A DNA stretch of 64,000 nucleotides from Prevotella sp. HUN102 (GTDB lineage: Bacteria > Bacteroidota > Bacteroidia > Bacteroidales > Bacteroidaceae): the NCBI RefSeq assembly GCF_000688375.1, contig NZ_JIAF01000003.1, forward strand, positions 62,001 through 126,000, in the 5' to 3' direction. Each line of letters opens with the position of its first letter. Position 1 is the first letter of the stretch. Below are positions 1,761 through 45,727 of this stretch, in pieces. The notes beneath the pieces were generated by a model, which saw only the letters and a program-made list of their open reading frames with translations, was not told where the DNA came from and searched no databases. The translations under genes were made by a program, and so were the position numbers.

Positions 1761-1820
1761 TTCTCTCGTTCAAACGGCAATCAAAGAGTATTCTAACACA
1801 ATATAAATCACCTATGGAAA

Positions 1821-1885
1821 ATTGTCTTATAGGAGAATAAAAATTGTCCTATAAGACAATTTGAAAAGTCTTATAAGACAATTTT
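1821..1885. promoter_or_regulatory. Cluster of GTCTTATAAGAC-type palindromes upstream of mobC
   Basis: Three related units lie in the 155-nt gap between mobB and mobC. ATTGTCTTATAGGA at 1821-1834 is the exact inverted complement of TCCTATAAGACAAT at 1847-1860 (14-bp stem, 12-nt loop). The second arm also belongs to a near-palindrome at 1843-1860. A perfect 12-bp palindrome GTCTTATAAGAC sits at 1868-1879 and continues into another ACAATT. This looks like a multi-site operator or an RNA structure setting mobC expression against mobAB. No U tract follows the stems, so a simple terminator is less likely. Confidence 0.6.
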
Positions 1886-1915
1886 AGAGATAAGGGTAGA
1901 TAATAAAAATATGTT

Positions 1916-6601: not shown

Positions 6602-7069
6602 TTATTCTTCATTTGATGGATTAGACTTTGATATTTCTTCTATGGCTTTTTCCAATAGCTCAATCATTGCCGAACGTGTTTCAGCGTTCTCCACTGCTTT
6701 CAGCAAAGCACGATTGGAGGATAACTGACGAGCAATCTTTACATACTGCTCTTTTTCCACATCCAATTGAGAAAGGAAAGGGCTGTTCTCTTTAAGATTC
6801 TTGGCACCAAAATCGCCAAGATTATGAAAACTCATGGTTTCCACGACAGGCGTTCCTTCCTGATCTTGGTGTTCTAGTTGAACTGTCGGATTAAAACGCT
6901 CGAAGACATCCTCGACTGTCTCTAAACCATAGACAGCTTCTGGATTTACCGGAGCTTCATCCGTAAGTTTCTGAACAAACAATGTTCGATTCGAAGGAAT
7001 CTCAGCAATTGACTCATTGGCATCTACTTTTACTTCATTGCCACCTACACCGTATTGATATAGTCCCAT
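6602..7069 (-). CDS. tssB: T6SS contractile sheath small subunit TssB
   Basis: A 155-residue partner of TssC. It opens with MGLYQYGVGG and contains the EDVFERFNPTVQL segment and the FHNLGDFGAKNL...SPFLSQL motif of the TssB family, followed by a helical C terminus (ARQLSSNRALLKAVENAETR). It is the first gene of the unit tssB-tssC-effector-membrane protein. A Bacteroidota promoter lies at 7128-7160. The sheath genes are therefore transcribed separately from the baseplate/envelope genes, although both read on the minus strand. Confidence 0.88.
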   Translation of the reverse strand: MGLYQYGVGGNEVKVDANESIAEIPSNRTLFVQKLTDEAPVNPEAVYGLETVEDVFERFNPTVQLEHQDQEGTPVVETMSFHNLGDFGAKNLKENSPFLSQLDVEKEQYVKIARQLSSNRALLKAVENAETRSAMIELLEKAIEEISKSNPSNEE

Positions 7070-7127
7070 AATTTGTATGATTTAATATTTTCTATATATT
7101 CGATTATTCAAGCCATTAGGGTGCTGG

Positions 7128-7160
7128 CAAATATAATCATTTTTACTGTGAATACCAAAG
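7128..7160 (-). promoter_or_regulatory. Promoter of the tssBC operon
   Basis: Read on the minus strand, TTTG at 7160-7157 and TATATTTG at 7135-7128 are separated by 21 nt, close to the Bacteroidota consensus TTTG-N19/20-TAnnTTTG. The leader to the tssB ATG (7069) would be about 50 nt. Confidence 0.65.
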
Positions 7161-7562
7161 AAAATCTGATTTTTTTGTTATTTCACTGCAAAAATGTTGA
7201 TAATCAGCTGTATTAACCAACATGGTCATGATACAAATTAGGTATAATTACGTTTTATCGCATCTGGGTTCATAGGTCTCACTTTTGTACTTGTTGCACT
7301 AATACCTCCTCTGGAGTCATTAGGATCCTTTAAACTCTCAAAACTTTAAGGTCAGAGATAAAAAACAGTTCCCGCACTGCCTCATAGCCCAAAACGAACT
7401 CAAAGAACACAAAAAATCCGCAAAAAGCCAAAAACAGCTTCCTGCGGACAAAGGTAACCCCAATTCGGTTTAAGGGCATCTCTTTTTAGTCCGGATTATC
7501 GTCCATAACGCTTCTTTCGACCTCGTTTTAGGTCGAAGAATCATTGTTTCACGCCAATAGGT

Positions 7563-7988
7563 TTAGAAAAGTGAGAGCTGCCTTACTTCTGCTTCGGCCT
7601 CCATCTCAAATTCCATATTGTTGGCTGTTTTTGAGGGCTTGGTTTTGCTTGGGTTCGGATTTGTTATTCTTTGTTTATTATTTGATTTATAATGTCTTGT
7701 ATTTTGTTTATGTCTGCCTTTGGCAGATATTTTTTGCCTCCCCTTTTTTTGCCCGCTCTTCGGGCTGTTTTTATTGGTTATAGATTGTTTTTGGGGGTGT
7801 TCTACGGCTTGATTGGTATTCCTATCGGCTCGGCGGTTATCGGAGTGTTTTGTATGTGGTTCTGCCTGTTTTTTTAAGGGGTGTTGTTGCGGGTCTGTTT
7901 TGCTACCTCTCCCCCCGCTCAAAAGCCTTTGGGAAAGGGGCGAGGGAAACAGGGCGTAAACCCTGATAAACAAAGGGATTGACGGCAA
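7563..7988 (-). CDS. Doubtful hydrophilic basic protein ending in a sliding-clamp-like motif
   Basis: A 141-residue frame, very rich in Lys, Ser, Asn, Gln and Pro (about residues 30-115), with an acidic run MEFEMEAEAEV and the C-terminal end RQLSLF. QLSLF fits the consensus QL[SD]LF by which bacterial proteins bind the DNA polymerase III beta clamp. Only a TTG start is available at 7988 and no clear ribosome site is seen, so the frame may be fortuitous. The composition is unlike the neighbouring T6SS genes. I do not recognise a family; reported because of the tail motif. Confidence 0.3.
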   Translation of the reverse strand: MPSIPLFIRVYALFPSPLSQRLLSGGRGSKTDPQQHPLKKQAEPHTKHSDNRRADRNTNQAVEHPQKQSITNKNSPKSGQKKGRQKISAKGRHKQNTRHYKSNNKQRITNPNPSKTKPSKTANNMEFEMEAEAEVRQLSLF

Positions 7989-8112
7989 AAAAGCGGATTG
8001 GCGATAATTTTCTTCAAAAACACGAAGATTTAAGAATATTTAACTATATCCGAGCCAAAAAGAGGGTGAAAAACGGACAAAAACAGGCAAAAAAGCTCCC
8101 GAATAGAATTAG

Positions 8113-8162
8113 CCAAAAAAAACATACCCTAATGAACCATGGATAGGGCATGTTCTTTTTGG
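8113..8162. terminator. Long imperfect hairpin, possible terminator of the Rhs/immunity unit
   Basis: CCAAAAAAAACATACCCTA (8113-8131) pairs with TAGGGCATGTTCTTTTTGG (8144-8162) with few mismatches and a 12-nt loop. A-tracts and T-tracts in the arms allow it to act on either strand. It lies about 390 nt beyond the last immunity gene, so the assignment is tentative. Confidence 0.4.
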
Positions 8163-8554
8163 TTATCTGTAACGTATGAAAGCCTCCAATAAAGAAAATA
8201 GAATCAGTAAATTTAAAAGTGTCAGTTTTTGGCAGGGGTAATCTCTATTTATCCCCTTCTTTTTGATGTTACGCATTTTTGTTAATAAAATCCGTCTTTT
8301 CCTTATCCTTATAGACCAATCCCAGAGTTGTTCAATAGCTCCATACCTGTTCTCCCTTTAAATGAACTGGATAAAGAAAGCCCCAATAATCAGACTAAAA
8401 AAAGAAAGAGAAAAACGGACAAATATACATGAAAAACGAAACATACCCCAATCCCTTAAAACCATCAGAAGAAAAAAAGGGAAAAACAAGCAAAAGACCT
8501 GTTGATAACTTTTTGACATAGTCTATATAAAACTTTATCGGATAAGTAGATATA

Positions 8555-8845
8555 TTATTTTATAGGTAATGTCTTTTTTATCTTGTTGTATTCTTCAATG
8601 ATAGACCATGTTTTTTTGGTAATTAAGTTATCCCAAGGCCAAGAATCTATTGACCAGCGCATAATCTTATCTAAATCATTGGATAAATTATCACCAAATG
8701 ATTTAGATGAAATATTATCACGTATGATAGAAAAGATATAAATTGCTTTCTCCAGTTGATGGGCAGGAAAGTAACTATCTTTCTTCTGAAGTTCTGCCTT
8801 CAACTCTGATATTAAACAAATTAAATTATTAGCAAAACTTTCCAT
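8555..8845 (-). CDS. Putative immunity protein for the first Rhs toxin (8851-13116)
   Basis: A 96-residue, all-helical-looking soluble protein with no signal peptide or membrane segment and a tryptophan cluster (MRWSIDSWPWDNLITKKTW). It starts 5 nt after the stop of the Rhs gene, the standard position for the cognate immunity gene of a polymorphic toxin. A cytoplasmic immunity protein suggests that the toxin acts in the cytoplasm. I do not recognise its family; the role is inferred from position and size. Confidence 0.65.
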   Translation of the reverse strand: MESFANNLICLISELKAELQKKDSYFPAHQLEKAIYIFSIIRDNISSKSFGDNLSNDLDKIMRWSIDSWPWDNLITKKTWSIIEEYNKIKKTLPIK

Positions 8846-8850
8846 ATGAA

Positions 8851-11800
8851 TTAAATTAAACTGGTTACAGGGTCATCTACCACAAATTTTTGAATTTGCC
8901 CTCCGCTTAAGTTCCCTTGAGGAGCAGCAACGCCTTCAAAAAGTAATGTTCCTTTTTTTATTTGCCATTGTTTTATATCTGTCATGTTATTCCATTCGGG
9001 CTTAATAGCAAGACTATTACGTGAAGCTGGAAAAGTTTCAAATAAATAACGCCCATTTGCCGTAGCTTTCAAACCCTTGTCATGGAATCTTATACCATAT
9101 TCATTAGTGCGAGCTAATCGTACTTTGATTGTTCGCACATCAAAAGATTGTAGTATATTTTTTCTAACTTGGCGGGGTAAACCTCGTTCTTTTAATATTT
9201 GCGATGCCTCTTGCACTCCCTTATAAATATTAGATTGTGCTTTACAGTCCAACCCAAACGGGTCTATTTCTATATTACTATCAAACACATATCCGTATAG
9301 CGTAGGATTACCACCTGCCAACCCTATCGGGTCTTGAGTGATAAACGCCCCTGTATCTGCTGAATAGTACCGATGTCGCACATAGCAAAGTTCAGTTTCC
9401 GTATCATAATACATCCCCTGAAACCTGAAAGGTATGAAGTCTCGTTTCCCTCTGAGTTCCAGTACATCTCCATAGATGTCAAGGATGCAGTCCCAGACCA
9501 CATTTCCCTTGCTGTCAAGAGCCTGTATAGGCGTACCCAAGTAGTCTTGCACGATGGTATAACTATCATCCTCGGTGAGCTTTGCCACCGGGGTATAACT
9601 TCCACCGTCATACACCCATGTAATGAGATTGGTGTACGGTTCCTGTCTGTCATAACGGATACGCCCCAATTCATCCTGCTGTGTCCTCGGCTTTTCCCGC
9701 TTGTCATAACTCCACTCGTGCAGCAGCACGTTGCCGTCCCAGGCATAGCGATAGCATGTGTCGTGCGTCTCCTTAAGGGTACGCCTGCCCAAGGCATCGT
9801 ACTCAAACCTTATGGTGGCACCTTCGGGTGTGCGTACGCTCTTGAGCATGCCGTTGCCGTACCACTCGTAAGCGGTGTCTCCCTGTTGCCAGCCATAATG
9901 AGCCTGCAGTTCCTTGTCGTTGGGTGTGGTTCTCGTGAAGAGCTTGTCAAGCCAATCCTTGGGTTGCGGCATCACGGGAGGTTCCAAGACATTGCGAGTG
10001 CTCTTGAGGATAAGATTGCCTTCCCCGTCATAGCGGTAAAAGAAATTCTCATCCCTGAGCAGTCTGCCGCCCCTGTCATAGACACGTCCCTCGGCATCCC
10101 TGTCCCGATAGACGTTGCCGATGATGTCGGGAGTCTTGAAGAGATGCTCGCTCATGTCAAGCGATGCGCCGACAAGGGTACCGAAGCTGTCATAGTCGTA
10201 CGTCACGGGATCTTTCCTCAGGTGGGACCGCATGGAAAGCAGCCTGTCGTTCCTTCTCCATGCATAGAAGCGGTGCCCGCGCGATTCCGTCCCCGCATAG
10301 GTACACCTTGCCTCCAGACGTCCCGCAAAGTCGTATTCCGAGGTAATGCGCACGCCACCCGTGGCAAAGCGCTCTATCTCGCGTCCCCTCTCATCGTAGC
10401 GGATACGGCTTTCCCAAGCGTCCGATTCCTCAGCTTGCCGGGCATGGAGGGTTTCCGTTTCCCCAAGTGGGGTGTAGGAGGTATTCTGCTCCGCCCCGAG
10501 AGAACTCCGCAGCCCCACGTGTCCGCCCCATTGGTCGTAGTCGTGCTCAATGGTAACCCTGTCAGCCTTTTTCCCTCCGGGGAGTATCTGCTCTTCCTTG
10601 ATGACGCGCCCCTTTTTGTCACGGCTGAAGGTTACTTCGCCATGCGCGTTGGCGGCACCACACAGCCTGCCGTCCTTGTCGTAGAAGAAGGATTCCCATG
10701 TGCCGTCGGAATAGCGTGCCTTGCTGATACGACCGAAGGCATTGTGCTCATAGATGGTATGGCGTCCATCGGGACGGTCTACGCGGATGACGTCTCCCGA
10801 CCTGTTGAGTGTGAAGCGCCGCTCCATACCGTCAAAGCCAACCTCACGGATGACGTTGCCCGCCTTGTCGCGCAGGAACCGATAGAGGCTGCCACGCTCG
10901 TTGCGCAGGGTGGTGAGGCGTTCCATTGCGTCATAGAAGAACTCCACGGACGTGCCCTGTTCCTCACGGCGTCTCAGGCTGCCCATTGGGGTGTAGTCCA
11001 TCCTCACATGGCGGTCCTTGTCTTTTACCTCGGTGACGCTGTCGTAACAGTCGTAGCCGATGTCTATAATGTTCCCGTCGGGACGGTAGATACGCCGCAC
11101 GCGGTCAAGGAGGTCGTACTCGTATTGAAGGGGGCGTGCGGACGGACCCTGCTCCATAACAGGACGTCCCCGGTAGTCGTACTCCCGGCGCATGAGTACC
11201 CTGCCTTCAGAATGGCAACTGCTGAGATTGCCCATGTCGTCATAGTGCAGGACTATGCTCCTGCCACCCTTCTCCATCATGGAGAGACTGCCGTCAGAGT
11301 TATAGTGAAGGTTGGTCTGGGTGTCGTCTTCCTCGATGACGGTGCGTACCCTATGGGGGTGCTCGGTGTCATAGACGTAGATCTGTCTGGTGCCTTTGGG
11401 TGACATTTGGAGAATCATGCGGTCCTTCTCATCAAACACACGCATGGATAATGTGCCATCGGGATAGGTCGTGCCTGTCTGGTTGCCGCGTCCGTCATAG
11501 TGCCAGCCCGTAATGCGCCCCTCGGGGTCTATTTCCCGGTAGGGCTCCATCTCCTCGGTATAGTCATAGCGGGTCGTGTTGCCAAGAGCATCGGTGATGG
11601 AGCGGACAAGCTGATTGGCATCGTAGCGGTATGTACTCTCCGCACCACAGGCGTCACGGACAGTGTTATATCCCTTCTCGGGGAAATAGGAGATCCAGCC
11701 CTCCTGATCACCATCTTCTCCGTGTGTATGGATGCAGCGCCCCTCCTTGTCGTATTCCCAATAGAACGTGTACCCGTTACGGTCGGTCTTCTCCACCATA

Positions 11801-13116
11801 CGGTGCTCCTCGTAGCGGATTCCTGTCGTCTGCCCCAATGCGTCGGTGATGCCTACCATGTCGCCCTGCTCGTCATAGGAATAGCGAACAAGTTGCTCGG
11901 AATTTCCGTCCGGCATCCTCAGGTGAAGGCTCTCGATGAATCCCTCATCCGTAAGTCGGACTGTGATTTGACGACCACAGGCATCGGTGAGCGTCGCAAG
12001 CACGCCATTCTCATAGGAAAGGCGAATGCTCCTGCCCTCCAAGTCGGTAACAGTGGAAAGACGATGGGTGGAATACCCCCTGTCTTTTCCGGGAATGGTG
12101 AAGTGGAAGGACAGGTTGCTGTCGTGTTCAAATGCAACGTACCCTTCCTTCGTTCGGGAAAGGGTGATGCGCTCGAGGCGGTTATATGAGTCTTCTCCCT
12201 CATCAAGCACGGGGAAGGAGGCGAGGCGACCGTCACTCAATCTTAAAACAAGGATATCCTCTTCGGGAAGGAAGGTGACGCTCCTGTCGTACGAGCAGTG
12301 CACCCCGTGTCCCAGCCAGCCCTTATAGTCGGAATCGGAATACCAGACACGCTCCCATGACAAGGACGGCATGCCGGGGAAGAAGAAGTCTTCACCTTCA
12401 TAGACTACGACGCCATTGACAAGGTTCACAGGCTCAAAACCGTGCTTGCAAAGTTTCTTTGACAGGGATCGTGTCGCTCTCATTTTCTTGCAGATGCCTT
12501 TCTTAAGGACTTTATGGTTGAAAGCCGTCAATCCTTTTTTCCCCGCTTTCTTCATAGCCTTCAATATGGCAGGGGCAAAACTGAGCAGCGTGCTGAAGCC
12601 GATGCTTGACAAAAGCCCCGTCAGCATACCGCCCCAGTCGGGGACGTAAGGACCGCCGACCATGACGGGCGCACCTGTCGGAATGGGAATGGAGAAAGAT
12701 GTCGGGGCGAAGAGGGTTGGGGTAAACTTGAGTTTTTTCTTGCCGGCCTTGCTCAATGCTCCCGAGAAGGGAATACCCACGTCGTTGCAGGTCATGAGCA
12801 TGTGTCCCTTGGGGCTTAAACGCGTACCCTCTGCAAAGACCGTCTGTGAGGAGAAGAAGTTCACGCTCTCGTGTCCGATGATGGGCATCATGATGAAGGC
12901 TCCCACCAAGGGGATGTGCTGGAAGGTGATCAGCACACCGCTCGTGTCGGACACGCCACGCTTCAGACCGTTGATGTTGACGTTGCTGCCGAGGAAGGGA
13001 ATATAGTCAAAGGGGTCTATGACCATACCTATATAGGGATGGAAAGGATTACCGGAGGTCGCAAGATGCAAATCCAGACCTACAACAGGGGTCAAATGAG
13101 TACTGACGGGTAACAT
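8851..13116 (-). CDS. PAAR-like/Rhs T6SS effector with unrecognised C-terminal toxin (Rhs1)
   Basis: A protein of about 1421 residues. The true start is the ATG at 13116 (the sister gene begins identically, MLP.STHL.PV); the longer frame would use TTG. The N terminus (about 1-155) resembles the PAAR-like tip domain of Bacteroidota effectors, with VFAEGTRLSPKGHMLMTCND. Then come a hydrophobic helix (about 165-195), a DUF6531 segment (about 225-295) and many YD/Rhs repeats forming a cocoon (about 300-1230). The core ends at DPIGLAGG...DPFGL near residue 1289. The toxin is the final 130 or so residues (DNA 8851-9250), with AIKPEWNNMTDIKQW and EGVAAPQGNLSGGQIQKF. I cannot name its fold. The immunity gene follows at 5 nt. 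Confidence 0.85.
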   Translation of the reverse strand: MLPVSTHLTPVVGLDLHLATSGNPFHPYIGMVIDPFDYIPFLGSNVNINGLKRGVSDTSGVLITFQHIPLVGAFIMMPIIGHESVNFFSSQTVFAEGTRLSPKGHMLMTCNDVGIPFSGALSKAGKKKLKFTPTLFAPTSFSIPIPTGAPVMVGGPYVPDWGGMLTGLLSSIGFSTLLSFAPAILKAMKKAGKKGLTAFNHKVLKKGICKKMRATRSLSKKLCKHGFEPVNLVNGVVVYEGEDFFFPGMPSLSWERVWYSDSDYKGWLGHGVHCSYDRSVTFLPEEDILVLRLSDGRLASFPVLDEGEDSYNRLERITLSRTKEGYVAFEHDSNLSFHFTIPGKDRGYSTHRLSTVTDLEGRSIRLSYENGVLATLTDACGRQITVRLTDEGFIESLHLRMPDGNSEQLVRYSYDEQGDMVGITDALGQTTGIRYEEHRMVEKTDRNGYTFYWEYDKEGRCIHTHGEDGDQEGWISYFPEKGYNTVRDACGAESTYRYDANQLVRSITDALGNTTRYDYTEEMEPYREIDPEGRITGWHYDGRGNQTGTTYPDGTLSMRVFDEKDRMILQMSPKGTRQIYVYDTEHPHRVRTVIEEDDTQTNLHYNSDGSLSMMEKGGRSIVLHYDDMGNLSSCHSEGRVLMRREYDYRGRPVMEQGPSARPLQYEYDLLDRVRRIYRPDGNIIDIGYDCYDSVTEVKDKDRHVRMDYTPMGSLRRREEQGTSVEFFYDAMERLTTLRNERGSLYRFLRDKAGNVIREVGFDGMERRFTLNRSGDVIRVDRPDGRHTIYEHNAFGRISKARYSDGTWESFFYDKDGRLCGAANAHGEVTFSRDKKGRVIKEEQILPGGKKADRVTIEHDYDQWGGHVGLRSSLGAEQNTSYTPLGETETLHARQAEESDAWESRIRYDERGREIERFATGGVRITSEYDFAGRLEARCTYAGTESRGHRFYAWRRNDRLLSMRSHLRKDPVTYDYDSFGTLVGASLDMSEHLFKTPDIIGNVYRDRDAEGRVYDRGGRLLRDENFFYRYDGEGNLILKSTRNVLEPPVMPQPKDWLDKLFTRTTPNDKELQAHYGWQQGDTAYEWYGNGMLKSVRTPEGATIRFEYDALGRRTLKETHDTCYRYAWDGNVLLHEWSYDKREKPRTQQDELGRIRYDRQEPYTNLITWVYDGGSYTPVAKLTEDDSYTIVQDYLGTPIQALDSKGNVVWDCILDIYGDVLELRGKRDFIPFRFQGMYYDTETELCYVRHRYYSADTGAFITQDPIGLAGGNPTLYGYVFDSNIEIDPFGLDCKAQSNIYKGVQEASQILKERGLPRQVRKNILQSFDVRTIKVRLARTNEYGIRFHDKGLKATANGRYLFETFPASRNSLAIKPEWNNMTDIKQWQIKKGTLLFEGVAAPQGNLSGGQIQKFVVDDPVTSLI
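11645..13068. repeat. Copy A of an approximately 1.42 kb block shared by the two rhs genes
   Basis: Reading both lines side by side I found no difference between 11645-13068 and 16707-18130 (offset 5062). The first mismatches are at 11644/16706 (a/g) and after 13068/18130, where the extreme 5' ends differ at several bases. Beyond the left edge the copies are still similar but carry scattered changes, and the toxin tips are unrelated. The block encodes the PAAR-like domain, hydrophobic helix, DUF6531 and the first YD repeats. Confidence 0.85.
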
Positions 13117-13208
13117 TAAGAACAATGTAATTTCTTTGTTCGCTCTCTCGTTTTTTAAGGTGTTTAACTTTTACGTTTTGTCGCCTTAAAGAGATGGACG
13201 ACTTCTTG

Positions 13209-13931
13209 TCAATGATTCCTTACTAAGATATTATTTATAACTACCAATTTTAAGTTACCATCAATTTCAGTGATGCTTTCCACAGGAGTCTTGCCATTTT
13301 CTATATTATCGAATTGTGATTGATTTAGAATGTTTATTGGATATAGCTTAGGGAGAAAGCCATCATTTAAATTTAATAACCCATCTCTTCTTAAGATGTC
13401 CTCTTTGGTTACAGATACAGAAGAACCCCAAAATGAGCTTTTAACTATTCTCTCAGAGCGGACATCCATCCCCTTTTCAAGCGGGAGTACATATCCGTAA
13501 TCTATTGGGAATATTTCTAGCAATGCTTTAATGAATGCATATGCCTTATCTTTGCTTATGTCATTGTGTCCTGAGCAGATGTCAAATTCTATAACCCCTG
13601 CCCCCTCTTGATGAACCTGATTTAGCAAGCTATTCGAATATAATATTTTATTAGCCTTCTCTTTACTCGAGATTATTAAATCACAAATTTCAAGATCGCC
13701 CGAAACTCCATTTATTTGTTCTAAGAAAACTGTCAGTTTTTTGTACGTTTTGACCCCATAATTCAATTCAATACAATCAAAAACAGAGTCCTCAAAAAAA
13801 GAATCAATAGACAACTTTATTGCATTCTTGATCGCCTGCGGATTATACAAGGATAAATCCTTGTATCTAACCACTTTGAATAATTTCAGCACACTCCCTG
13901 TGGGAACTTTCTTGTTGTTCTTGAATATCAT
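13209..13931 (-). CDS. Putative immunity protein for the second Rhs toxin (13928-18178)
   Basis: A protein of about 240 residues, soluble, without signal peptide. The ATG at 13931 overlaps the TGA of the upstream Rhs gene (ATGA), which couples translation and is typical of toxin-immunity pairs. The longer reading from 13937 would use TTG. It contains a mixed alpha/beta pattern (NGVSGDLEICDLIIS, PIDYGYVLPLEKGMD). Its size and a GYVLPL element recall large immunity proteins of the DUF3396/SUKH kind, but I cannot assign a family. A low-GC sequence relative to the Rhs core suggests that toxin and immunity travelled together as a cassette. Confidence 0.65.
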   Translation of the reverse strand: MIFKNNKKVPTGSVLKLFKVVRYKDLSLYNPQAIKNAIKLSIDSFFEDSVFDCIELNYGVKTYKKLTVFLEQINGVSGDLEICDLIISSKEKANKILYSNSLLNQVHQEGAGVIEFDICSGHNDISKDKAYAFIKALLEIFPIDYGYVLPLEKGMDVRSERIVKSSFWGSSVSVTKEDILRRDGLLNLNDGFLPKLYPINILNQSQFDNIENGKTPVESITEIDGNLKLVVINNILVRNH

Positions 13932-16900
13932 CGACAAGGCTTAAATTTATTAATAATACCTTTCAATCGTTCATTTAGTCTGTCTGCTATTTGTGCTAAC
14001 TTGCTGATTTTCACATCGCCAGTTATCCTATTTTGCCACATAAAACCGCTATTTCGTAGTCTTAAGTTTTCAACAACATCAGTTTTAGAAGCTACTTCAA
14101 TCACTCTTACCGTACCATCTTTATATAGTATTCCAACATCAGGTCTTGGACCATACTTAAAGTTGCCTCCTCCTAAAAGTCGTTTATATCCTAGATTCAT
14201 TGTTACTCTCTCTACATTAGGGTTAAGTGAATAAATTTGAGCATACATCTTGGAAACAAATGCGTGTCCAAGAGTCCCTGTAGACTGTGCCGAACCAATA
14301 ATTTTACCAAAAAACAATCCAAACGGATCCATTTCTGTATTACTATCAAAAACATACCCATACATCGTAGGGTTGTTTCCAGCCAGTCCTATCGGGTCCT
14401 GACTAATGTAGTTTCCGGTATGTGGCGAGTAATACCTGAACCTGTTGTAGTACAGTCCTGTTTCCCCATCTTCGTATTGACCTTGGAAACGGAAGGGTAT
14501 AAAGTCTCGTTTCCCTCTCAGTTCCAGTACATCTCCATAGATGTCGAGGATGCAGTCCCAAACCACCTCACCCTTGCTGTCGAGAGCCTGAATAGGTGTA
14601 CCCAGATAATCCTGCACGATACTGTAGCTGTCCTCCTCGGTGAGCTTTGCCACAGGGGTATAACTACCACCGTCATACACCCATGTAATGAGATTGGTAT
14701 ACGGCTCCTGCCTGTCATAGCGGATGCGCCCGAGTTCATCTTTCTCCATTCTCGGCTTTTCCCGCCTGTCATAGTTCCACTCATGCAGCAGCACGTTGCC
14801 GTCCCAGGCATAGCGATGGCATGTATCGTGCGTCTCCTTAAGCGTACGTCTGCCCAAGGCATCGTACTCAAACCTTATGGTGGCACCCTCGGGAGTGCGT
14901 ACGCTCTTGAGCATGCCGTTGCCGTACCACTCGTAGGCGGTATCTCCCTCCTGCCAGCCATAATGAGCCTGCAGCTCCTTCTCGTCTGGCTTATCCATGA
15001 AGAGGCGGTCTGCCCAACTCTTCGGTCGGGGTATCAGCGGCGGTTCGAGAACGTTCCTTCGGCTCTTGAGAATCAAGTTACCCTCACCGTCATAGCGGTA
15101 AAAGAAATCCTCATCCCTGAGCAGCCTGCCGCTCCTGTCATAGACACGTCCCCTGGCATCCCTGTCCCGATAGACGTTGCCGATGATGTCGGGAGTCTTG
15201 AAGAGACACTCGCTCATGTCAAGCGATGCACAGACAAGGGTGCCGAAGCTGTCATAGTCGTACATCACGGGAGACTTCCTCAGGTGAGACCGCATGGAAA
15301 GCAGCCTGTCGTTCCTTCTCCATGCATAGAAGCGGTGTCCGCGCGATTCCGTCCCCGCATAGGTACACCTTGCCTCCAGACGCCCCGCAAAATCGTATTC
15401 CGAGGTAATGCGCACGCCACCCGTGGCAAAGCGCTCTATCTCGCGTCCCCTCTCATCGTAGCGGATACGGCTTTCCCAAGCGTCTGATTCCTCTGACTGC
15501 CGGGCATGGAGGGTCTCCGTCTCCCCAAGTGGGGTGTAGGAGGTATTCTGCTCCGCTCCGAGAGAACTCCGCAGTCCTGTGTGTCCGCCCCATTGGTCAT
15601 ATTCATGCTCAATGGCAATCCTGTTTGCCTTGCCTCCGTTCGGGAGTATCTGCTCTTCTTTAATGACACGACCCTTTTTGTCGCGGCTGAAGGTCACTTC
15701 TCCCTGTGCGTTGGCGGCACCACACAGCCTGCCGTCCTTGTCGTAGGAGAAGGATTCCCATGTGCCGTCGGAATAGCGTGCCTTGCTGATACGCCCGAAA
15801 GCGTTGTGCTCATAGGTGGTATGGCGTCCATCGGGACGGTCAACGCGGATGACGTCCCCCGATGCGTTGAGCGTGAGGCGGCGCTCCATACCATCAAAGC
15901 CAACCTCACGGATGACGTTGCCCGCCTTGTCGCGCACGAACCGATAGAGGCTGCCACGCTCGTTGCGCAGGGTGGTGAGGCGTTCCATTGCGTCATAGAA
16001 GAACTCCACGGACGTGCCCTGTTCCTCACGGCGTTTCAGGCTGCCCATTGGGGTGTAGTCCATCCTCACATGGCGGTCCTTGTCCCTCACCTCGGTGACG
16101 CTCTCGTAACAGTCATAGCCGATGTCTATAATGTTCCCGTCGGGACGGTAGATACGCCGCACGCGGTCAAGGAGGTCGTACTCGTATTGGAGGGGGCGTG
16201 CGGACGGGCTCTGCTCCATAACAGGACGTCCCCGGTAGTCGTACTCCCAGCGCATGAGCTCCCTGCCCTCCGAATGGCAACTGCTGAGATTGCCCATCTC
16301 GTCATAGTTCAGGGCTATGCTCCTGCCGCCCTTTTCCAACATGGCGAGACTGCCGTCAGAGTTATAGTGAAAGTTGGTCTGGGTGTCGTCTTCCTCGATG
16401 ACGGTGCGTACTCTATGGGGGTGCTCGGGGTCATAGACGTAAATCTGTCTGGTGCCTTTGGGTGACATTTGGAGAATCATGCGGTCCTGCTCATCGAACA
16501 CCCACATGGACAGTGTTCCGTCGGGGTGGGTCGTGCCCGTCTGATTGCCGCGCTCGTCATAGTGCCATCCCGTAATGCGCCCCTCGGGATCTATTTCCCG
16601 GTAGGGCTCCATCTCCTCGGTATAGTCATAGCGGGTCGTGTTGCCCAGGGCATCGGTGACGGAGCGGACAAGCTGGTCGGGGTCATAGCGGTAGGTAGTC
16701 TCCGCGCCACAGGCGTCACGGACAGTGTTATATCCCTTCTCGGGGAAATAGGAGATCCAGCCCTCCTGATCACCATCTTCTCCGTGTGTATGGATGCAGC
16801 GCCCCTCCTTGTCGTATTCCCAATAGAACGTGTACCCGTTACGGTCGGTCTTCTCCACCATACGGTGCTCCTCGTAGCGGATTCCTGTCGTCTGCCCCAA

Positions 16901-18178
16901 TGCGTCGGTGATGCCTACCATGTCGCCCTGCTCGTCATAGGAATAGCGAACAAGTTGCTCGGAATTTCCGTCCGGCATCCTCAGGTGAAGGCTCTCGATG
17001 AATCCCTCATCCGTAAGTCGGACTGTGATTTGACGACCACAGGCATCGGTGAGCGTCGCAAGCACGCCATTCTCATAGGAAAGGCGAATGCTCCTGCCCT
17101 CCAAGTCGGTAACAGTGGAAAGACGATGGGTGGAATACCCCCTGTCTTTTCCGGGAATGGTGAAGTGGAAGGACAGGTTGCTGTCGTGTTCAAATGCAAC
17201 GTACCCTTCCTTCGTTCGGGAAAGGGTGATGCGCTCGAGGCGGTTATATGAGTCTTCTCCCTCATCAAGCACGGGGAAGGAGGCGAGGCGACCGTCACTC
17301 AATCTTAAAACAAGGATATCCTCTTCGGGAAGGAAGGTGACGCTCCTGTCGTACGAGCAGTGCACCCCGTGTCCCAGCCAGCCCTTATAGTCGGAATCGG
17401 AATACCAGACACGCTCCCATGACAAGGACGGCATGCCGGGGAAGAAGAAGTCTTCACCTTCATAGACTACGACGCCATTGACAAGGTTCACAGGCTCAAA
17501 ACCGTGCTTGCAAAGTTTCTTTGACAGGGATCGTGTCGCTCTCATTTTCTTGCAGATGCCTTTCTTAAGGACTTTATGGTTGAAAGCCGTCAATCCTTTT
17601 TTCCCCGCTTTCTTCATAGCCTTCAATATGGCAGGGGCAAAACTGAGCAGCGTGCTGAAGCCGATGCTTGACAAAAGCCCCGTCAGCATACCGCCCCAGT
17701 CGGGGACGTAAGGACCGCCGACCATGACGGGCGCACCTGTCGGAATGGGAATGGAGAAAGATGTCGGGGCGAAGAGGGTTGGGGTAAACTTGAGTTTTTT
17801 CTTGCCGGCCTTGCTCAATGCTCCCGAGAAGGGAATACCCACGTCGTTGCAGGTCATGAGCATGTGTCCCTTGGGGCTTAAACGCGTACCCTCTGCAAAG
17901 ACCGTCTGTGAGGAGAAGAAGTTCACGCTCTCGTGTCCGATGATGGGCATCATGATGAAGGCTCCCACCAAGGGGATGTGCTGGAAGGTGATCAGCACAC
18001 CGCTCGTGTCGGACACGCCACGCTTCAGACCGTTGATGTTGACGTTGCTGCCGAGGAAGGGAATATAGTCAAAGGGGTCTATGACCATACCTATATAGGG
18101 ATGGAAAGGATTACCGGAGGTCGCAAGATGGAGGTCCAGACCGATAACGGGCATCAAATGGGTACTGCTCGGTAGCAT
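13928..18178 (-). CDS. PAAR-like/Rhs T6SS effector with predicted PD-(D/E)xK nuclease toxin (Rhs2)
   Basis: A protein of 1416 residues with the same architecture as Rhs1: PAAR-like tip (about 1-155), hydrophobic helix, DUF6531, YD repeats, and a core end DPIGLAGN...DPFGL near residue 1288. The last 128 residues (DNA 13928-14315) are unrelated to Rhs1. They contain TGTLGHAFVSKMYAQ and then GPRPDVGILYKDGTVRVIEV followed by ASK. That D...E-x3-K arrangement after a PD is the pattern of the PD-(D/E)xK nuclease fold, so a DNase is likely. It is the first Rhs after vgrG and the TPR-like gene (18197). Immunity is encoded by the ATGA-overlapping gene. The 5' part is apparently identical to Rhs1 over about 1.4 kb. 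Confidence 0.87.
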   Translation of the reverse strand: MLPSSTHLMPVIGLDLHLATSGNPFHPYIGMVIDPFDYIPFLGSNVNINGLKRGVSDTSGVLITFQHIPLVGAFIMMPIIGHESVNFFSSQTVFAEGTRLSPKGHMLMTCNDVGIPFSGALSKAGKKKLKFTPTLFAPTSFSIPIPTGAPVMVGGPYVPDWGGMLTGLLSSIGFSTLLSFAPAILKAMKKAGKKGLTAFNHKVLKKGICKKMRATRSLSKKLCKHGFEPVNLVNGVVVYEGEDFFFPGMPSLSWERVWYSDSDYKGWLGHGVHCSYDRSVTFLPEEDILVLRLSDGRLASFPVLDEGEDSYNRLERITLSRTKEGYVAFEHDSNLSFHFTIPGKDRGYSTHRLSTVTDLEGRSIRLSYENGVLATLTDACGRQITVRLTDEGFIESLHLRMPDGNSEQLVRYSYDEQGDMVGITDALGQTTGIRYEEHRMVEKTDRNGYTFYWEYDKEGRCIHTHGEDGDQEGWISYFPEKGYNTVRDACGAETTYRYDPDQLVRSVTDALGNTTRYDYTEEMEPYREIDPEGRITGWHYDERGNQTGTTHPDGTLSMWVFDEQDRMILQMSPKGTRQIYVYDPEHPHRVRTVIEEDDTQTNFHYNSDGSLAMLEKGGRSIALNYDEMGNLSSCHSEGRELMRWEYDYRGRPVMEQSPSARPLQYEYDLLDRVRRIYRPDGNIIDIGYDCYESVTEVRDKDRHVRMDYTPMGSLKRREEQGTSVEFFYDAMERLTTLRNERGSLYRFVRDKAGNVIREVGFDGMERRLTLNASGDVIRVDRPDGRHTTYEHNAFGRISKARYSDGTWESFSYDKDGRLCGAANAQGEVTFSRDKKGRVIKEEQILPNGGKANRIAIEHEYDQWGGHTGLRSSLGAEQNTSYTPLGETETLHARQSEESDAWESRIRYDERGREIERFATGGVRITSEYDFAGRLEARCTYAGTESRGHRFYAWRRNDRLLSMRSHLRKSPVMYDYDSFGTLVCASLDMSECLFKTPDIIGNVYRDRDARGRVYDRSGRLLRDEDFFYRYDGEGNLILKSRRNVLEPPLIPRPKSWADRLFMDKPDEKELQAHYGWQEGDTAYEWYGNGMLKSVRTPEGATIRFEYDALGRRTLKETHDTCHRYAWDGNVLLHEWNYDRREKPRMEKDELGRIRYDRQEPYTNLITWVYDGGSYTPVAKLTEEDSYSIVQDYLGTPIQALDSKGEVVWDCILDIYGDVLELRGKRDFIPFRFQGQYEDGETGLYYNRFRYYSPHTGNYISQDPIGLAGNNPTMYGYVFDSNTEMDPFGLFFGKIIGSAQSTGTLGHAFVSKMYAQIYSLNPNVERVTMNLGYKRLLGGGNFKYGPRPDVGILYKDGTVRVIEVASKTDVVENLRLRNSGFMWQNRITGDVKISKLAQIADRLNERLKGIINKFKPCR
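16707..18130. repeat. Copy B of the approximately 1.42 kb rhs block
   Basis: Direct-repeat partner of 11645-13068. Same orientation, 5062 bp apart. Homologous recombination between the copies would delete one rhs core plus one toxin/immunity set. Confidence 0.85.
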
Positions 18179-18196: not shown

Positions 18197-19552
18197 TTAT
18201 TGAGGCACTTTATTCTCCTTTTCTATGCGCCTGATGGCGTCTTTAGGACTTTCCTGCCAATGAACTCCGTAGAGAGTGACCATACGATTATCTATTTCCC
18301 GCTCCAACTTTCGGCTGACATTTTCTCCCTTAGATATGAAAGCTTGCGCGATGAATGAAATGTTGATAAGTTTCAATTCTTCGTCAGTGAGGGAATAACC
18401 ATATTCAAAAGCTTCTTTCAATATAGGCGTGTAATCAGTCCTTTCTTTTTTTAGAAGCACCAAGAGAATACTATTGTAGCAATTGATGGTTTGTGCATGA
18501 TTCTCTGTCTGTTTAGAGATACGGACAGCATTCATAAAATGAGAACTTGCTTTCTCCAAATCTTTTGCCATAGCATAGGCAGCTCCTTTATACAGGTAGC
18601 AATGAATCATAAGATCAGCATACATCAAAGGTTCATCTGCAGGTGTCGCCTCTTGTATGACTGCCAGGGCTTTGTCAAGCATCTGTTGCAAATGTCCACC
18701 TTCTTCTTTTATAAAATGCATCAGGAACCCGCTTACTGCCAAATAACCGGAAACCCAAAGATTTGTATCTCCTATCTTTTTGCATAACGGGAAAAACTCC
18801 TCTGTTGCAATTTTATAGAGTCGTTTCCTATTGCTCTTGGCTGTTTCTTCGCCCATTTCCAGCAACAACCTCCTATATTGGACCTGTGGATCATTAGGGT
18901 CTCCCTGTGTGATAATTTCCTTATAGGCTGCTCCCATATTTTGGTTTGGAAGTTCTACAACACACCCCTTATCTTCCATCTTTTTAATGATAGGAGAAAA
19001 TATTTCTTCTCCCTTGGCTTCCATGAAGAGTAGCCCGATGTCACCGTCTGTGGCATCCAAGAACTCTTTTAGGACTTCGTGCAGTACATCAAGGCTTTCA
19101 ACACGCTCAATTACAAGAACCAATACAAGCAGATTACCTGTTACCCCCTCAAATCGCTTAAAACTATGTAGCAATTGGGAATAAAAGGACAGCAGGTTAT
19201 GCTCATCCTTAGGGGATAATTTATGGTATTGCTCCTTGAGATGGGCAAAATCGTTCCAATGCCATTCCGGATGACTCTCTAAATCTTTGTCAAATGCGGT
19301 AATCCATTGTTCTATTAAGGATTTGTAAAAATCTCCTTTGTTGTCAAGAAGAGTGCGAAAAACGAGAAATGTGTCATCTGAAATTCCATGTGGAGTAGAT
19401 TCAATACCGATAAACCCTTCTATAAGAGCATAATCTTCAGGGGTATAGTTCATCACAAAAGCACGGGCGTGTGGTTTTTCACTGCGTACTTTCAGCCAAA
19501 GGTCTTGAACTTGCCTTATGCGGATAGAAATAGGGTTGTGTTCATTGTCCAT
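18197..19552 (-). CDS. TPR-like protein between VgrG and Rhs, candidate effector adaptor
   Basis: A 451-residue soluble protein. The C-terminal half (about 210-400) is a series of paired helices of TPR type (for example LYKIATEEFFPLCKKIGDTN, YKGAAYAMAKDLEKASSHFM). The N-terminal half contains GVTGNLLVLVLVIERVESLD, an alpha/beta element. It starts 3 nt after the vgrG stop and ends about 19 nt before rhs2. In other T6SSs this slot between spike and effector is occupied by adaptor/chaperones (DUF4123, DUF1795, DUF2169) that load the effector. This protein does not look like any of those, so I infer a Bacteroidota-specific adaptor serving one or both Rhs proteins. Confidence 0.6.
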   Translation of the reverse strand: MDNEHNPISIRIRQVQDLWLKVRSEKPHARAFVMNYTPEDYALIEGFIGIESTPHGISDDTFLVFRTLLDNKGDFYKSLIEQWITAFDKDLESHPEWHWNDFAHLKEQYHKLSPKDEHNLLSFYSQLLHSFKRFEGVTGNLLVLVLVIERVESLDVLHEVLKEFLDATDGDIGLLFMEAKGEEIFSPIIKKMEDKGCVVELPNQNMGAAYKEIITQGDPNDPQVQYRRLLLEMGEETAKSNRKRLYKIATEEFFPLCKKIGDTNLWVSGYLAVSGFLMHFIKEEGGHLQQMLDKALAVIQEATPADEPLMYADLMIHCYLYKGAAYAMAKDLEKASSHFMNAVRISKQTENHAQTINCYNSILLVLLKKERTDYTPILKEAFEYGYSLTDEELKLINISFIAQAFISKGENVSRKLEREIDNRMVTLYGVHWQESPKDAIRRIEKENKVPQ

Positions 19553-19555
19553 AAA

Positions 19556-21352
19556 TCAGTTCAAATTTAGGAGTCCTCCCTTTACATTTGTCATAGCTGT
19601 GCCATCTACATTTACAGTTGCACCATTTATGGCAACTTCTGCGGTACCCTCAACCTTGGTGGAGGGAGCAGTGACACCAGCCTTGGTGGTACTTGTTACT
19701 TCGACTTCCGTAGTACCCTCCAACTTTGTTTTCTCTCCCTTGATATAGACTTCCGTAGTACCTTCTATCTTAACTTTTTCATTACCCTTAATCTCAATTT
19801 CTTTTGATTCAAAAGTAATTTTATCAGCAGATTTTATGGAAATGGTGTTGTCTCCATTCAGCACGACTATACTTCCCGATGGATCTACGATGGTAGCACT
19901 TCCTTTGCTGTCATCCAACGTGACGGCAACGCCGCTTCTTGTGGTCAGGCTCTTCACGTTGTTGTCGGCTCCGCCCCCGCCTCCGTTGGTTCCATTGAAC
20001 AGGCTTCCTTGTATATAGGGTCTGTTGGGGTCATTGTAACGGAAGGCAACCATGACTTGGTCGCCGACTTCCGGGATAAAGACAAATCCTCTGTTGGAGG
20101 ATACCTTTTCACTTCCTCCCGCATCCGGTGAGAGCACACGCACCCACGAGGTCTTCATCCCGTTTATCTGCCAGTTCATTCTCACTTGGACACGTCCCTG
20201 TTTCTTGGGGTCATCATTGCTGATGACGGTCGCCATCTGTGGCTGGGCAATGGGAAGGGGGACGTCAGGGGTCGGCAATGACCTTACGGATGCAGGAATC
20301 GCAGTGAATTGGCAGGAATAGCCTCCGTCGCCCTCCGCGAAGTGGACTATCTCAGTGATAAGGTAAGTTCCCAGCAACTCCTCCCTGTAGGAAACGCCTG
20401 CCAGTTGAACGGTGCTTTTTATGTCCACGACACTGCCCAGCATCAGACCCACATAGTCGCTCTCCGCCGTGACAAAGTGGGACATGGAGGCGTCCGATTG
20501 CTGTTTCTTCTGAAGATAGGCGTCCAACTCTCCTTTGTTCGTGACACGGGAGGTGGCATAATGATTGGCGGGAGGACCAAACATCTTGATGGATTCCTGA
20601 AAAGCCTGCTGCCCGAGCTTGTTCAGTCCCGCCGGCTCGTCCGGCGACGAGGATTTCAGCGTATTGTTGCTTCCCGACAGATGGGCGAAGGAGGAAAGGG
20701 CACGGGCTCCGGTCTGGATGCAGATGTCCAAGGAGTTCAAATCCCTCTTGGAGTCCAGCGTGATGGAGGGAGGTAATTCCGGCTTGCCGAAAATCAATTT
20801 CTCTCCATCATAATAGAGCCATTCGAAATGCTGTCTCGCTAGTCTTTGTATGAATGCGAAATTGCTCTCCTGATATTGACACTCATATTCCAGTTTTGCG
20901 CTCCTTTCCGGTTTCACCAATGCCTGCACATTGGACTTTTCTGCCAGTTCCCCGACAATGTCCGCCAAAGTCTTCTCGTTCCAAGACGCAAAGTGCAAAT
21001 CGCCCTCCAAACGGTAGGTTGTGGAGAAACCCGAGACTTTCAGGAAAGTATATCCCTCGGACTTGTGCAAGCCTACCTGCGCCACAAGACCGTAAAAGTT
21101 CCTCTCACCAATAGTTATGGCAATTGATTTTCCCAGCCAGTCAGCGGATTTGGTGAGTGTGGCTGCCTGAAACACTTCACCGACTTCATAGTCAAGAAGC
21201 ATTTCAAAATAATGGTGTTCGTTAATTGACTGGTTCAGACGAAGGGACTTGAACGAAGACAACTCAACACCACCAATACAAATTGTCACCGGTTTGTTTG
21301 GCAAAAAATCCATACATGCATTTTTTTGATGAGTAAAAGCAACATTCTCCAT
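19556..21352 (-). CDS. vgrG: T6SS spike protein VgrG (TssI)
   Basis: The spike that caps the Hcp tube and carries effectors. From the ATG at 21352 it has about 598 residues; an ATG at 21313 (MDFLPNKPV) is an equally plausible start, while the longer frame from 21472 would run into hcp. The gp27-like part has SVQLAGVSYREELLGTYLITEIVHF. It is followed by the gp5 OB-fold (NDDPKKQGRVQVRMNW, VGDQVMVAFRYNDPNRPYIQGSLFNGTN) and a C-terminal beta-helix of repeated short strands (IEIKGNEKVKIEGTTEVYIKG). No toxin extension follows the needle, so effectors are separate proteins, as the downstream Rhs genes indicate. The gene follows hcp by about 58 nt. Confidence 0.88.
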   Translation of the reverse strand: MENVAFTHQKNACMDFLPNKPVTICIGGVELSSFKSLRLNQSINEHHYFEMLLDYEVGEVFQAATLTKSADWLGKSIAITIGERNFYGLVAQVGLHKSEGYTFLKVSGFSTTYRLEGDLHFASWNEKTLADIVGELAEKSNVQALVKPERSAKLEYECQYQESNFAFIQRLARQHFEWLYYDGEKLIFGKPELPPSITLDSKRDLNSLDICIQTGARALSSFAHLSGSNNTLKSSSPDEPAGLNKLGQQAFQESIKMFGPPANHYATSRVTNKGELDAYLQKKQQSDASMSHFVTAESDYVGLMLGSVVDIKSTVQLAGVSYREELLGTYLITEIVHFAEGDGGYSCQFTAIPASVRSLPTPDVPLPIAQPQMATVISNDDPKKQGRVQVRMNWQINGMKTSWVRVLSPDAGGSEKVSSNRGFVFIPEVGDQVMVAFRYNDPNRPYIQGSLFNGTNGGGGGADNNVKSLTTRSGVAVTLDDSKGSATIVDPSGSIVVLNGDNTISIKSADKITFESKEIEIKGNEKVKIEGTTEVYIKGEKTKLEGTTEVEVTSTTKAGVTAPSTKVEGTAEVAINGATVNVDGTAMTNVKGGLLNLN

Positions 21353-21410
21353 CACCCAATCAGAGTTGTATCTGCCGGATGATGGAGAAAAGAAATGTTG
21401 GCAAGGCAAA

Positions 21411-21809
21411 TTAAGCCTTAGGCCAACGATTGTCATGTTCTGCAGCACCCACGGTGATGTGCTCTGCCGCAAAAGTCATAGTAATGGTCATCGGAACGTC
21501 ATTGTTTACATCCAAGGTTTCCTTATAATGCACAATATAGGCGTTCTTGAATTCAACCTCTTTCATCTTGGCGTCCTCATCCGTCTTCTTGTAGATGATT
21601 TTTCCTTCAACGGGTTTGAACTGACTATTCAGCATAGCTTCGATGGTAGAGGTGTCCTCTGTGGACTCGATGGTAACGACAACTCGTCCTCCGGTAATAC
21701 TTGAAGAAGGCTTACCCTTACTGTCTGTTGAGCGAGAGAACTCATAATTTGAGAAGAGGACGTCAAATTCTTTTCCTCCCAACTCCAGTGATGCACGGAA
21801 TGATCCCAT
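21411..21809 (-). CDS. hcp: T6SS tube protein Hcp (TssD)
   Basis: A 132-residue protein that stacks as hexameric rings inside the sheath. It begins MGSFRASLELGGKEFDVLFSN and has the beta-barrel pattern of the Bacteroidota TssD family, including DVNNDVPMTITMTFAAEHI near the end. It lies between the membrane winged-helix gene and vgrG. The 290-nt gap upstream (21810-22096) contains no gene; hcp is often the most strongly expressed T6SS gene, but I could not find a clean TAnnTTTG box there. Confidence 0.88.
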   Translation of the reverse strand: MGSFRASLELGGKEFDVLFSNYEFSRSTDSKGKPSSSITGGRVVVTIESTEDTSTIEAMLNSQFKPVEGKIIYKKTDEDAKMKEVEFKNAYIVHYKETLDVNNDVPMTITMTFAAEHITVGAAEHDNRWPKA

Positions 21810-44821: not shown

Positions 44822-45727
44822 TTATATCCGCAAATGACGTTTTAATTTATCCACTCCTTCTTTGTGCTTATCGGGAGCCTGTTTCTTGAGTTTGTCTATA
44901 TTCAGTAATTTCCATTGTACAGATGGATATTGGCTTAAATTCCCTGCGCAACATTTCTCCCACAGTGGTGTTCCATCCTCAAAGGAAACGAGGAATTCCT
45001 TGTCTGAATTTGTAAGGCTGTCATTTACCTTTTTAATAATGGATTCACGAGCCTGCTCATAGTCTGTATAGGTAAATGGAATATCTGACATTCCCTTGAA
45101 TTGGTTTTCAAGTGCCTCCTCTTGGTTTATGTTATTAGGAGACAGAGATTCCACGATAGGCTTGTCGCTTCCCAATAGGCATAAGATGAGCCCGTCTTTT
45201 ACATCTTCAAGCGTTTGGTCTTTCATGTATTTGCAGTCAAACATGTCACGTGGGTGCTGGCGGCTGAGGGCAGCTGTAATTTTTCCTCCATAAAGTTGGG
45301 AATAAGGAACTATGCGTGCCTTACAGTTGGCTTGAAACTCTTCCTTTGCTTTCGGACAGAGTTCCATTATTTCAACATCTCCAAGTATGCCTCGTTTTGT
45401 ACCATTTACCTCTATTTTCACCGTGGCGCCATCATACGTGCATTGCAATTTCCATACTTTGGATTTATGTATCACATGTATTCCGGGAATGGCACGTTCT
45501 ATACTTGTTTTCAGCTCTCCGAGATGTTGATTTATCTTTTCTAAACTCGCCGTGCGTGACTCTATCGGAATATAGGTAAGGTCAATATCAACCGAGTAAC
45601 GTGGCATATTCTGGTGGAACAGGTTAATAGCCGTGCCTCCATGGACTGCAAAATCCGTTATCTTGTAAACCAAGGGCATAATGCGTAGTAACAATGCCAC
45701 CTGTTTTTTATATTGTTGATCATTCAT
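44822..45727 (-). CDS. abiEii: AbiEii-type nucleotidyltransferase toxin
   Basis: A 301-residue toxin of the type IV AbiE system. The nucleotidyltransferase signature GGTAINLFHQNMPRYSVDIDLTY (split as GGTAINLF and YSVDIDLT) is complete near residues 32-54. A KIEVNGTKRG strand and the KITAALSRQHPRDMFD segment (about 147-165) follow, as in AbiEii/MenT proteins, which transfer nucleotides to tRNA or other targets and arrest growth. It overlaps the antitoxin gene by 8 nt. Within an element, AbiE can defend against phage and stabilise the element against loss. Confidence 0.88.
   Translation of the reverse strand: MNDQQYKKQVALLLRIMPLVYKITDFAVHGGTAINLFHQNMPRYSVDIDLTYIPIESRTASLEKINQHLGELKTSIERAIPGIHVIHKSKVWKLQCTYDGATVKIEVNGTKRGILGDVEIMELCPKAKEEFQANCKARIVPYSQLYGGKITAALSRQHPRDMFDCKYMKDQTLEDVKDGLILCLLGSDKPIVESLSPNNINQEEALENQFKGMSDIPFTYTDYEQARESIIKKVNDSLTNSDKEFLVSFEDGTPLWEKCCAGNLSQYPSVQWKLLNIDKLKKQAPDKHKEGVDKLKRHLRI

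Follow-up and report, generated by a model that had tools for sequence, protein, structure and literature searches.

Two full-length Rhs effector genes, here called rhs A and rhs B, stand in tandem on the minus strand of a 64,000-nucleotide stretch of the Prevotella sp. HUN102 genome (contig NZ_JIAF01000003.1, positions 62,001 to 126,000), which is referred to as the window and whose coordinates are used throughout. Base-by-base alignment of the two genes revealed a single exact run of 1424 bp (11645-13068 in rhs A, identical to 16707-18130 in rhs B). Comparison of these sequences with those of relatives makes it very likely that recombination between the copies recently gave rhs A and rhs B one allele over these 1424 bp. 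The nearest public relatives, obtained from a scan of a genome collection, were L025 (a contig of a metagenome-assembled genome), L026 (Prevotella disiens) and the loci L027 and L084 (both Hoylesella timonensis). The genes and the segments compared are:

8851 to 13116, minus strand: rhs A, a full-length Rhs effector gene of 1421 amino acids, whose ATG at 13116 aligns with the ATG of rhs B.
13928 to 18178, minus strand: rhs B, a full-length Rhs effector gene of 1416 amino acids, adjoining an adaptor-like gene.
11645 to 13068, minus strand: identical block in rhs A (gene positions 49-1472), the probable recipient, whose divergence from relatives steps at the toxin-side edge.
16707 to 18130, minus strand: identical block in rhs B, the probable donor, whose divergence from relatives does not change significantly at the toxin-side edge.
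13069 to 13116, minus strand: apparently unconverted start of rhs A (first 48 bp), with 13/48 differences from rhs B and, over positions 1-60, 2/60 from L084.
18131 to 18178, minus strand: apparently unconverted start of rhs B (first 48 bp), with 1/48 difference from L027.

An earlier note on this DNA, made by a model from the letters, had seen no difference by eye over about 1424 bp, and the alignment agrees with it to the base. The graded divergence that it described beyond the block, ending in unrelated toxins, was also recovered: per 100 columns, identity between the copies was 100% in the block and mostly 81-99% in the core toward the toxin (dipping to 75-76% at 9861-10060 of rhs A), then fell to 67-72% where the core ends and to 21-44% within the toxins. 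Likewise the extreme 5′ ends differ, as it had said (13/48 between rhs A and rhs B), and the 60 bp upstream of the two gene starts look unrelated. Both edges of the block are sharp; the note had pointed to an abrupt one on the toxin side. Beyond the block the copies differ by 6.9% at gene positions 1473-2440 and by 8.4% at 2441-3060. At the neighbouring rate of 6.9%, finding 0/1424 differences has a probability of about 10^-44, and the longest run of polymorphic columns at which the copies agree was 150, compared with a maximum of 28 in 20,000 permutations; chance is therefore excluded. Strong selection conserving the delivery part was considered as well, as the block takes in the N-terminal module and DUF6531. 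However, the 474 codons of the block hold 0 synonymous as well as 0 non-synonymous differences (31 and 26, respectively, in the next 324 codons), though in the relatives this stretch has diverged by 6.4-9.5%. The synonymous sites and the relatives led us to reject conservation by selection, whose probability is close to nil.

The gene starts bear on the homogenisation as well. Over gene positions 1-60 rhs A differs from L084 at 2/60 sites and rhs B from L027 at 2/60, and the neighbours differ from each other at 13/60. Over positions 61-330 the neighbours are identical (0/270), and rhs A differs from L084, and rhs B from L027, at 25/270 sites each. Each start thus matches a gene of another species and the sequence after it matches the neighbouring copy, which marks homogenisation within this genome. 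Simple recent duplication of a whole gene was ruled out by the diverged starts together with the mosaic core described below. In a more elaborate version, rhs A was formerly an orphan-like rhs gene lacking a front, as in the protein P0011, and recently had its front copied from rhs B. In its favour is P0011 itself, which at 1190 amino acids lacks an N-terminal module, carries toxin A (100% identity over the aligned 75% of the region) and is 97-100% identical to rhs A at about residues 480-720. We consider it improbable, as rhs A has its own upstream DNA and its own start, which counts against front copying because a copied front would be expected to bring the start of rhs B.

The relatives also mark the toxin-side edge. 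Within the block, the shared allele differs from L025 at 91/1424 sites (6.4%), from L026 at 134/1409 (9.5%) and from L027 at 130/1409 (9.2%). Just past it, rhs A differs from the same three at only 23, 20 and 25 of 968 sites (2.4, 2.1 and 2.6%), a significant drop in each case (Fisher p 3.3e-6, 1.5e-14 and 1.5e-11, respectively). The corresponding values for rhs B are 72, 75 and 70 of 968 (7.4, 7.7 and 7.2%), with no significant change at the edge (p 0.32, 0.14 and 0.098). The switch can be followed site by site: at gene positions 1384-1464 the copies agree at 18/18 of the polymorphic sites listed, and at 1473-1611, 13/14 polymorphic sites have rhs A unlike rhs B with all three relatives like rhs A. 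Paralogues are therefore more alike than orthologues within a bounded tract. The earlier note had read the pattern as homogenisation by recombination and had proposed comparison with related elements; the sharp edges, the diverged starts close to genes of other species and the step in divergence from the three relatives all bear this reading out. As the block fits the background of rhs B, rhs A is likely the recipient; on the sequence evidence the block is probably native to rhs B, and transfer from rhs B to rhs A is the direction that we favour with fair confidence. Regarding non-reciprocal transfer, a donor and a recipient can thus be proposed, yet the flanking markers are themselves mosaic. 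Separately, the rhs genes of L026 (P. disiens) and L027 (H. timonensis) were found to share an exact 851-bp run across species, suggesting recent transfer.

Past the block, the core has a history of its own.

9250 to 11644, minus strand: core of rhs A past the block, mosaic relative to P. disiens L026.

Sites were taken as informative where L026 agrees with one copy only. The 275 such sites in the core fall into 43 runs, whereas 20,000 permutations gave 138 on average and never fewer than 108. When runs of at least four sites were taken and strays ignored, the copy matched by L026 alternates along the gene: rhs A at positions 1473-2385, rhs B at 2484-3054, rhs A at 3070-3232, rhs B at 3416-3558, rhs A at 3585-3681 and rhs B at 3687-3822. 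This alternation indicates more than one exchange event along the gene.

We propose that rhs A and rhs B were diverged full-length effectors arranged in tandem behind one Hcp-VgrG-adaptor set, and that homologous recombination recently copied gene positions 49-1472 between them, such that both would now carry the same allele. The process would be of the RecA type and would presumably depend on RecA. Gene conversion appears preferable to the equivalent unequal exchanges, in which one crossover duplicates the unit and a second removes one. The 5′ edge was probably placed where homology ends, near the gene start, and the 3′ edge would be the point where strand exchange happened to stop. The outcome would be one common delivery front before two unrelated toxins, which may be favoured by selection or may simply follow from homologous copies lying close together. 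Looping out, by which the earlier note envisaged that toxins are swapped or lost, is plausible.

To place the pair in context, five arrays with at least two full-front copies were examined: the window, G149, G1541, Chitinophaga niastensis and LT608321/G226. The last (L105, L106) was left out of the count, since its 5-8 kb rhs units repeat at at least 99%, which looks like misassembly or very recent amplification, and loci with a partial second copy (L027, L109 and others) were not counted as arrays. Three of the four counted arrays, the window included, carry identical blocks of at least 764 bp. In G149 (two rhs genes; L104) the copies differ at 11/70 sites at the start, 0/764 in the block and 25/766 after it, and have unrelated toxins; the outgroup G1476 differs from both copies at 165/764 sites in the block. 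G1541, a one-contig genome, holds three rhs genes (L117). Gene positions 1024-2840 show no difference between copies 2 and 3 (0/1817), and copy 1 departs from each of them there at 36/1817. Copies 1 and 2 in turn agree throughout 250-506 and 721-1023, two stretches in which copy 3 has 28/257 and 5/303 differences, respectively, and copies 2 and 3 have 44 differences in the first 1023 sites. The longest block of G1541 thus lies mid-gene, and homogenisation reaches beyond the delivery part. The functional proposal of the earlier note, that homogenisation keeps the delivery part fitted to one VgrG and adaptor, is weakened by this and is not favoured by the G1541 data, although exact stretches near the front are common to copies 1 and 2.

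In total 33 pairs were compared, comprising 29 same-genome pairs at separate loci, one between-species control, two C. filiformis pairs and the C. niastensis tandem pair (L079). The longest exact run among the 29 separate-locus pairs was 218 bp; these are a chosen subset of the possible pairs, several lie on short contigs, which makes their true spacing uncertain, and three pairs (38-89, 89-90 and 91-92) are cut by contig ends. The 29 pairs also start from a lower baseline identity than rhs A and rhs B do, such that tandem versus separate position is confounded with divergence. The C. filiformis pairs (L053/L054 and L081/L097) were dropped as probable duplicate scaffolds; each pair is identical over all 4.2 kb, toxins included, on different scaffolds. 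Broad searches for further arrays turned up few: at the E-value used, genomes with any match numbered 10/301 for the family (DNA), 6/392 for the phylum, 2/392 for the order and 3/398 for the genus (DNA), counts that include the genome of the window, and 7/158 for the genus of G149, with G149 included. One locus was found in IMG/VR, and all 48 plasmid records that matched were below 60% identity.

The other arrays also bear on whether one copy was written over the other during assembly or polishing. Rhs regions are described as hard to assemble in the available text of PMC4714493, and fragments of 16S genes on contigs C1 and C3 show that the assembly left some repeats unresolved. However, the assembly has only four contigs and contains four full-length 16S genes of 1532 bp each, repeats at least as large as the block, which must therefore have been at least partly resolved, and identical blocks occur in the one-contig genome G1541 and in G149 as well. 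An artefact of this kind is accordingly very improbable.

A unit larger than the toxin appears to move among these arrays. One stretch of G1541 runs from a core end through a toxin and an immunity gene into the following rhs gene, of which it takes in the first ~530 bp. Its identity to H. timonensis L027 is 89% over 2.6 kb; G258, whose contig begins within the toxin, matches it from there on at 95% over 1.8 kb. The start of the next gene can therefore travel with a toxin-immunity unit, and such travel could explain the differing starts of neighbours. For the window, a protein search of 11 loci gave no match to either probable immunity gene. Between the immunity gene of toxin B and the start of rhs A, the DNA matched the other compared loci only within the first 48 bp of rhs A (in L084 and L026).

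The shared unit can also be read as a trace of an alternative history, in which the block formed together with the pair. A resident rhs gene would have taken up a circular unit of rhs, toxin and immunity gene through a single crossover accompanied by gap repair. Both sides would then carry one allele, and the resident toxin (A) would have been displaced downstream, still behind a complete front; this amounts to C-terminal displacement without orphan formation. Consistent with this, L025 and L027 pair a B-type start (5/48 and 1/48 differences from rhs B) with a core at 1473-2440 that is 2.4-2.6% from rhs A, whereas in the window the B-type start goes with the B core and the A-type start with the A core, so the flanking markers look exchanged. 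However, the start of L026, the third relative, falls between the two types (10/48 from rhs A and 7/48 from rhs B), and past position 2440 L026 matches rhs B and then alternates, such that the exchange of markers is not assignable to one event, and no intermediate strain was found in searches of the genome collection, family DNA and genus DNA. Integration is thus a possible but doubtful account.

Several observations also weigh against recombination between the resident copies, or its direction, as set out above. Identity of the block is known from the assembled sequence. The 48-bp starts hold few informative sites, and the start of L026 is intermediate. The starts of G1541 are alike (2/60 for each pair), so that diverged starts recur in G149 only, and the C. 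niastensis pair has no long identical run (longest 118 bp). The H. timonensis loci add no further case of homogenisation, because past the start L027 is no closer to L084 (5/270 and then 13/255 differences, after 15/60 at the start itself) than to P. disiens L026, from which it differs at 4/270 and 0/255 sites over the same two stretches. The relatives L025, L026 and L027 share much of their haplotype and are not independent (within the block L026 and L027 differ by 1.1%, L025 and L026 by 5.0%). Finally, past position 2440 the relatives resemble rhs B rather than rhs A, which implies a history in several steps.

The genes around the pair and the toxin ends are as follows:

21411 to 21809, minus strand: Hcp (TssD), Pfam PF17642.
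19556 to 21472, minus strand: VgrG, with Pfam Phage_base_V and Phage_GPD.
18197 to 19552, minus strand: adaptor-like gene, with a weak match to Pfam TPR_12 (E 1.5e-4, below cut-off).
13931 to 14314, minus strand: toxin domain of rhs B, possibly a PD-(D/E)XK-like nuclease on weak similarity; mean predicted local distance difference test (pLDDT) of the model 83.6.
13209 to 13937, minus strand: probable immunity gene for toxin B, by position; open reading frame as listed, with a 10-bp overlap with the end of rhs B.
8854 to 9246, minus strand: toxin domain of rhs A, with a predicted Tse6/TNT-like NADase fold; model pLDDT 75.7.
8555 to 8845, minus strand: probable immunity gene for toxin A, by position; the open reading frame begins 5 bp past the rhs A stop.

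On the minus strand the order is therefore Hcp, VgrG, adaptor-like gene, rhs B, probable immunity gene, rhs A and second probable immunity gene. The VgrG frame (TTG start) and the hcp frame overlap by 62 bp, and the true VgrG start may be further in. The adaptor-like protein has 95.7-97.1% amino acid identity in L026 and L027; neither probable immunity gene matched Pfam, NCBIfam or PADLOC. Hcp, VgrG, TssC, TssR and TssN all lie in the window, and together with a ClpV-like ATPase the components around the pair (TssC, Hcp, TssR and TssN) are those of a Bacteroidota-type type VI secretion system (T6SS). Relaxase and coupling-protein genes at 480-3919 make the window appear to be part of a conjugative element, which also carries an AbiEi/AbiEii pair (type IV toxin-antitoxin) at 44822-46484. 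The genome yielded just two full-length rhs genes of this kind, both in the window; a third match in the genome is a 71-residue similarity (E 7.2e-4). A search for orphan toxin tips found no rhs match in the window besides rhs A and rhs B at E 1e-10, and the sole further match at 7000-8560 is at chance level (E 7.8).

Both proteins have the Rhs architecture of YD/RHS repeats, DUF6531 and an Rhs-associated core domain ending before the toxin, and rhs B matches solved T6SS Rhs cocoons (8qja, E 1.3e-58; 7q97, an Rhs family protein, E 3e-48). The PAAR-like tip that the earlier note had assigned to the front was not recovered: residues 1-201 of rhs B matched no Pfam family even at E<=5, and when a profile of the front was compared with solved Rhs proteins (PDB chains), the best stretches began at position 179 or later. 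For toxin A, the best Foldseek match of the model was Tse6 (4zv0; E 1.8e-4, template modelling score 0.69), followed with weaker E-values by Tne2 (6b12), TNT (4qlp) and Rhs1-CT (6xtd), and the match to Pfam TNT was below cut-off (E 0.047); the modelled domain looks like a Tse6/TNT-type NADase. For toxin B, the best Foldseek matches were mostly nucleases (FAN1, EndoMS, VRR_NUC, Cas4-like), the best at E 0.039 and none reaching 0.001. We take these to share the PD-(D/E)XK fold, and toxin B is possibly a PD-(D/E)XK-like nuclease. RHS_repeat Pfam domains were present in 7 of the 8 database matches of the toxin A domain and in 4 of the 7 of the toxin B domain. Proteins P0007-P0013 and P0015 seem to be Rhs proteins without an N-terminal delivery module, as inspected for P0011 and inferred for the others from length (1090-1203 amino acids) and coverage (75-76%). 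Reading frames at L084:1481-1786 and 3226-3666 begin like such front-less proteins. At L084:9001-9915 the first ~195 residues of an Rhs front are fused in one 304-amino-acid frame to an end matching Ntox15 (E 5.5e-7), and no RHS repeat was found in this frame.

These observations raise the tentative and rather improbable idea that tandem full-length rhs genes of Bacteroidota conjugative elements serve as a homology-driven cassette store. Repeated conversion would keep fronts and cores interchangeable, and what moves would be a unit running from the core end through toxin and immunity gene into the start of the following rhs gene. If true, a new toxin could be added without orphaning the old one. 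Two findings lower its likelihood: the starts in G1541 are not diverged, and the two H. timonensis genes do not preferentially resemble each other. More generally, the pair is a clean natural example of how a single delivery design can serve several toxins in one bacterium, and a warning that Rhs front regions can mislead on which copy is related to which.

Comparison with known systems draws on the available portions of the cited papers. Most of the related work covered, which also included PMC10539506, PMC5361080, PMC8125069, PMC5727410 and PMC12247911, concerns toxin-end exchange, orphan toxins or immunity arrays. Neither the text covered nor the titles and abstract openings listed describe intact tandem rhs genes with an identical block inside them, which does not prove that such a description is absent from the literature. 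Koskiniemi et al. 2014 described recombination between main and orphan rhs genes of Salmonella through 522 bp of homology at 95%, with duplication as a proposed intermediate (PMC3967940). There too neighbouring rhs genes recombine via shared homology, but the product is a fusion deploying the orphan toxin, whereas in the window both genes are intact and share an internal piece. Tandem immunity genes of the type VII secretion system recombine (Garrett et al. 2022, PMC9484751), a similar case of tandem paralogues of an antagonism locus swapping blocks by homologous recombination, although these are immunity genes of Firmicutes and those of the window are effector genes. Coyne et al. 2016 reported PAAR-Rhs effectors on the GA1/GA2 T6SS elements of gut Bacteroidales (PMC4714493); as here, a Bacteroidales T6SS lies on conjugative elements with Rhs toxins in variable regions, but block sharing between tandem copies is not described in the available text of that account. 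A further parallel is enterobacterial C-terminal displacement, in which displaced toxins become dissociated tips (Jackson et al. 2009, PMC2935791). In both systems the conserved rhs core provides homology for recombination, the toxin ends differ, and the histories of toxin and core are decoupled. Unlike that system, the copies in the window are full-length and mutually identical over 1.4 kb where relatives differ, and no front-less orphan tips were found downstream of an intact rhs gene. Rhs recombination is known as C-terminal displacement, of which homogenisation of full-length tandem copies is a variant. In the same work, E. coli Clade I rhs genes grouped according to their position in the genome, and recombination between the cores of different loci was called infrequent (if any); the contrast with the window raises the testable idea that distance or divergence decides whether rhs copies exchange.

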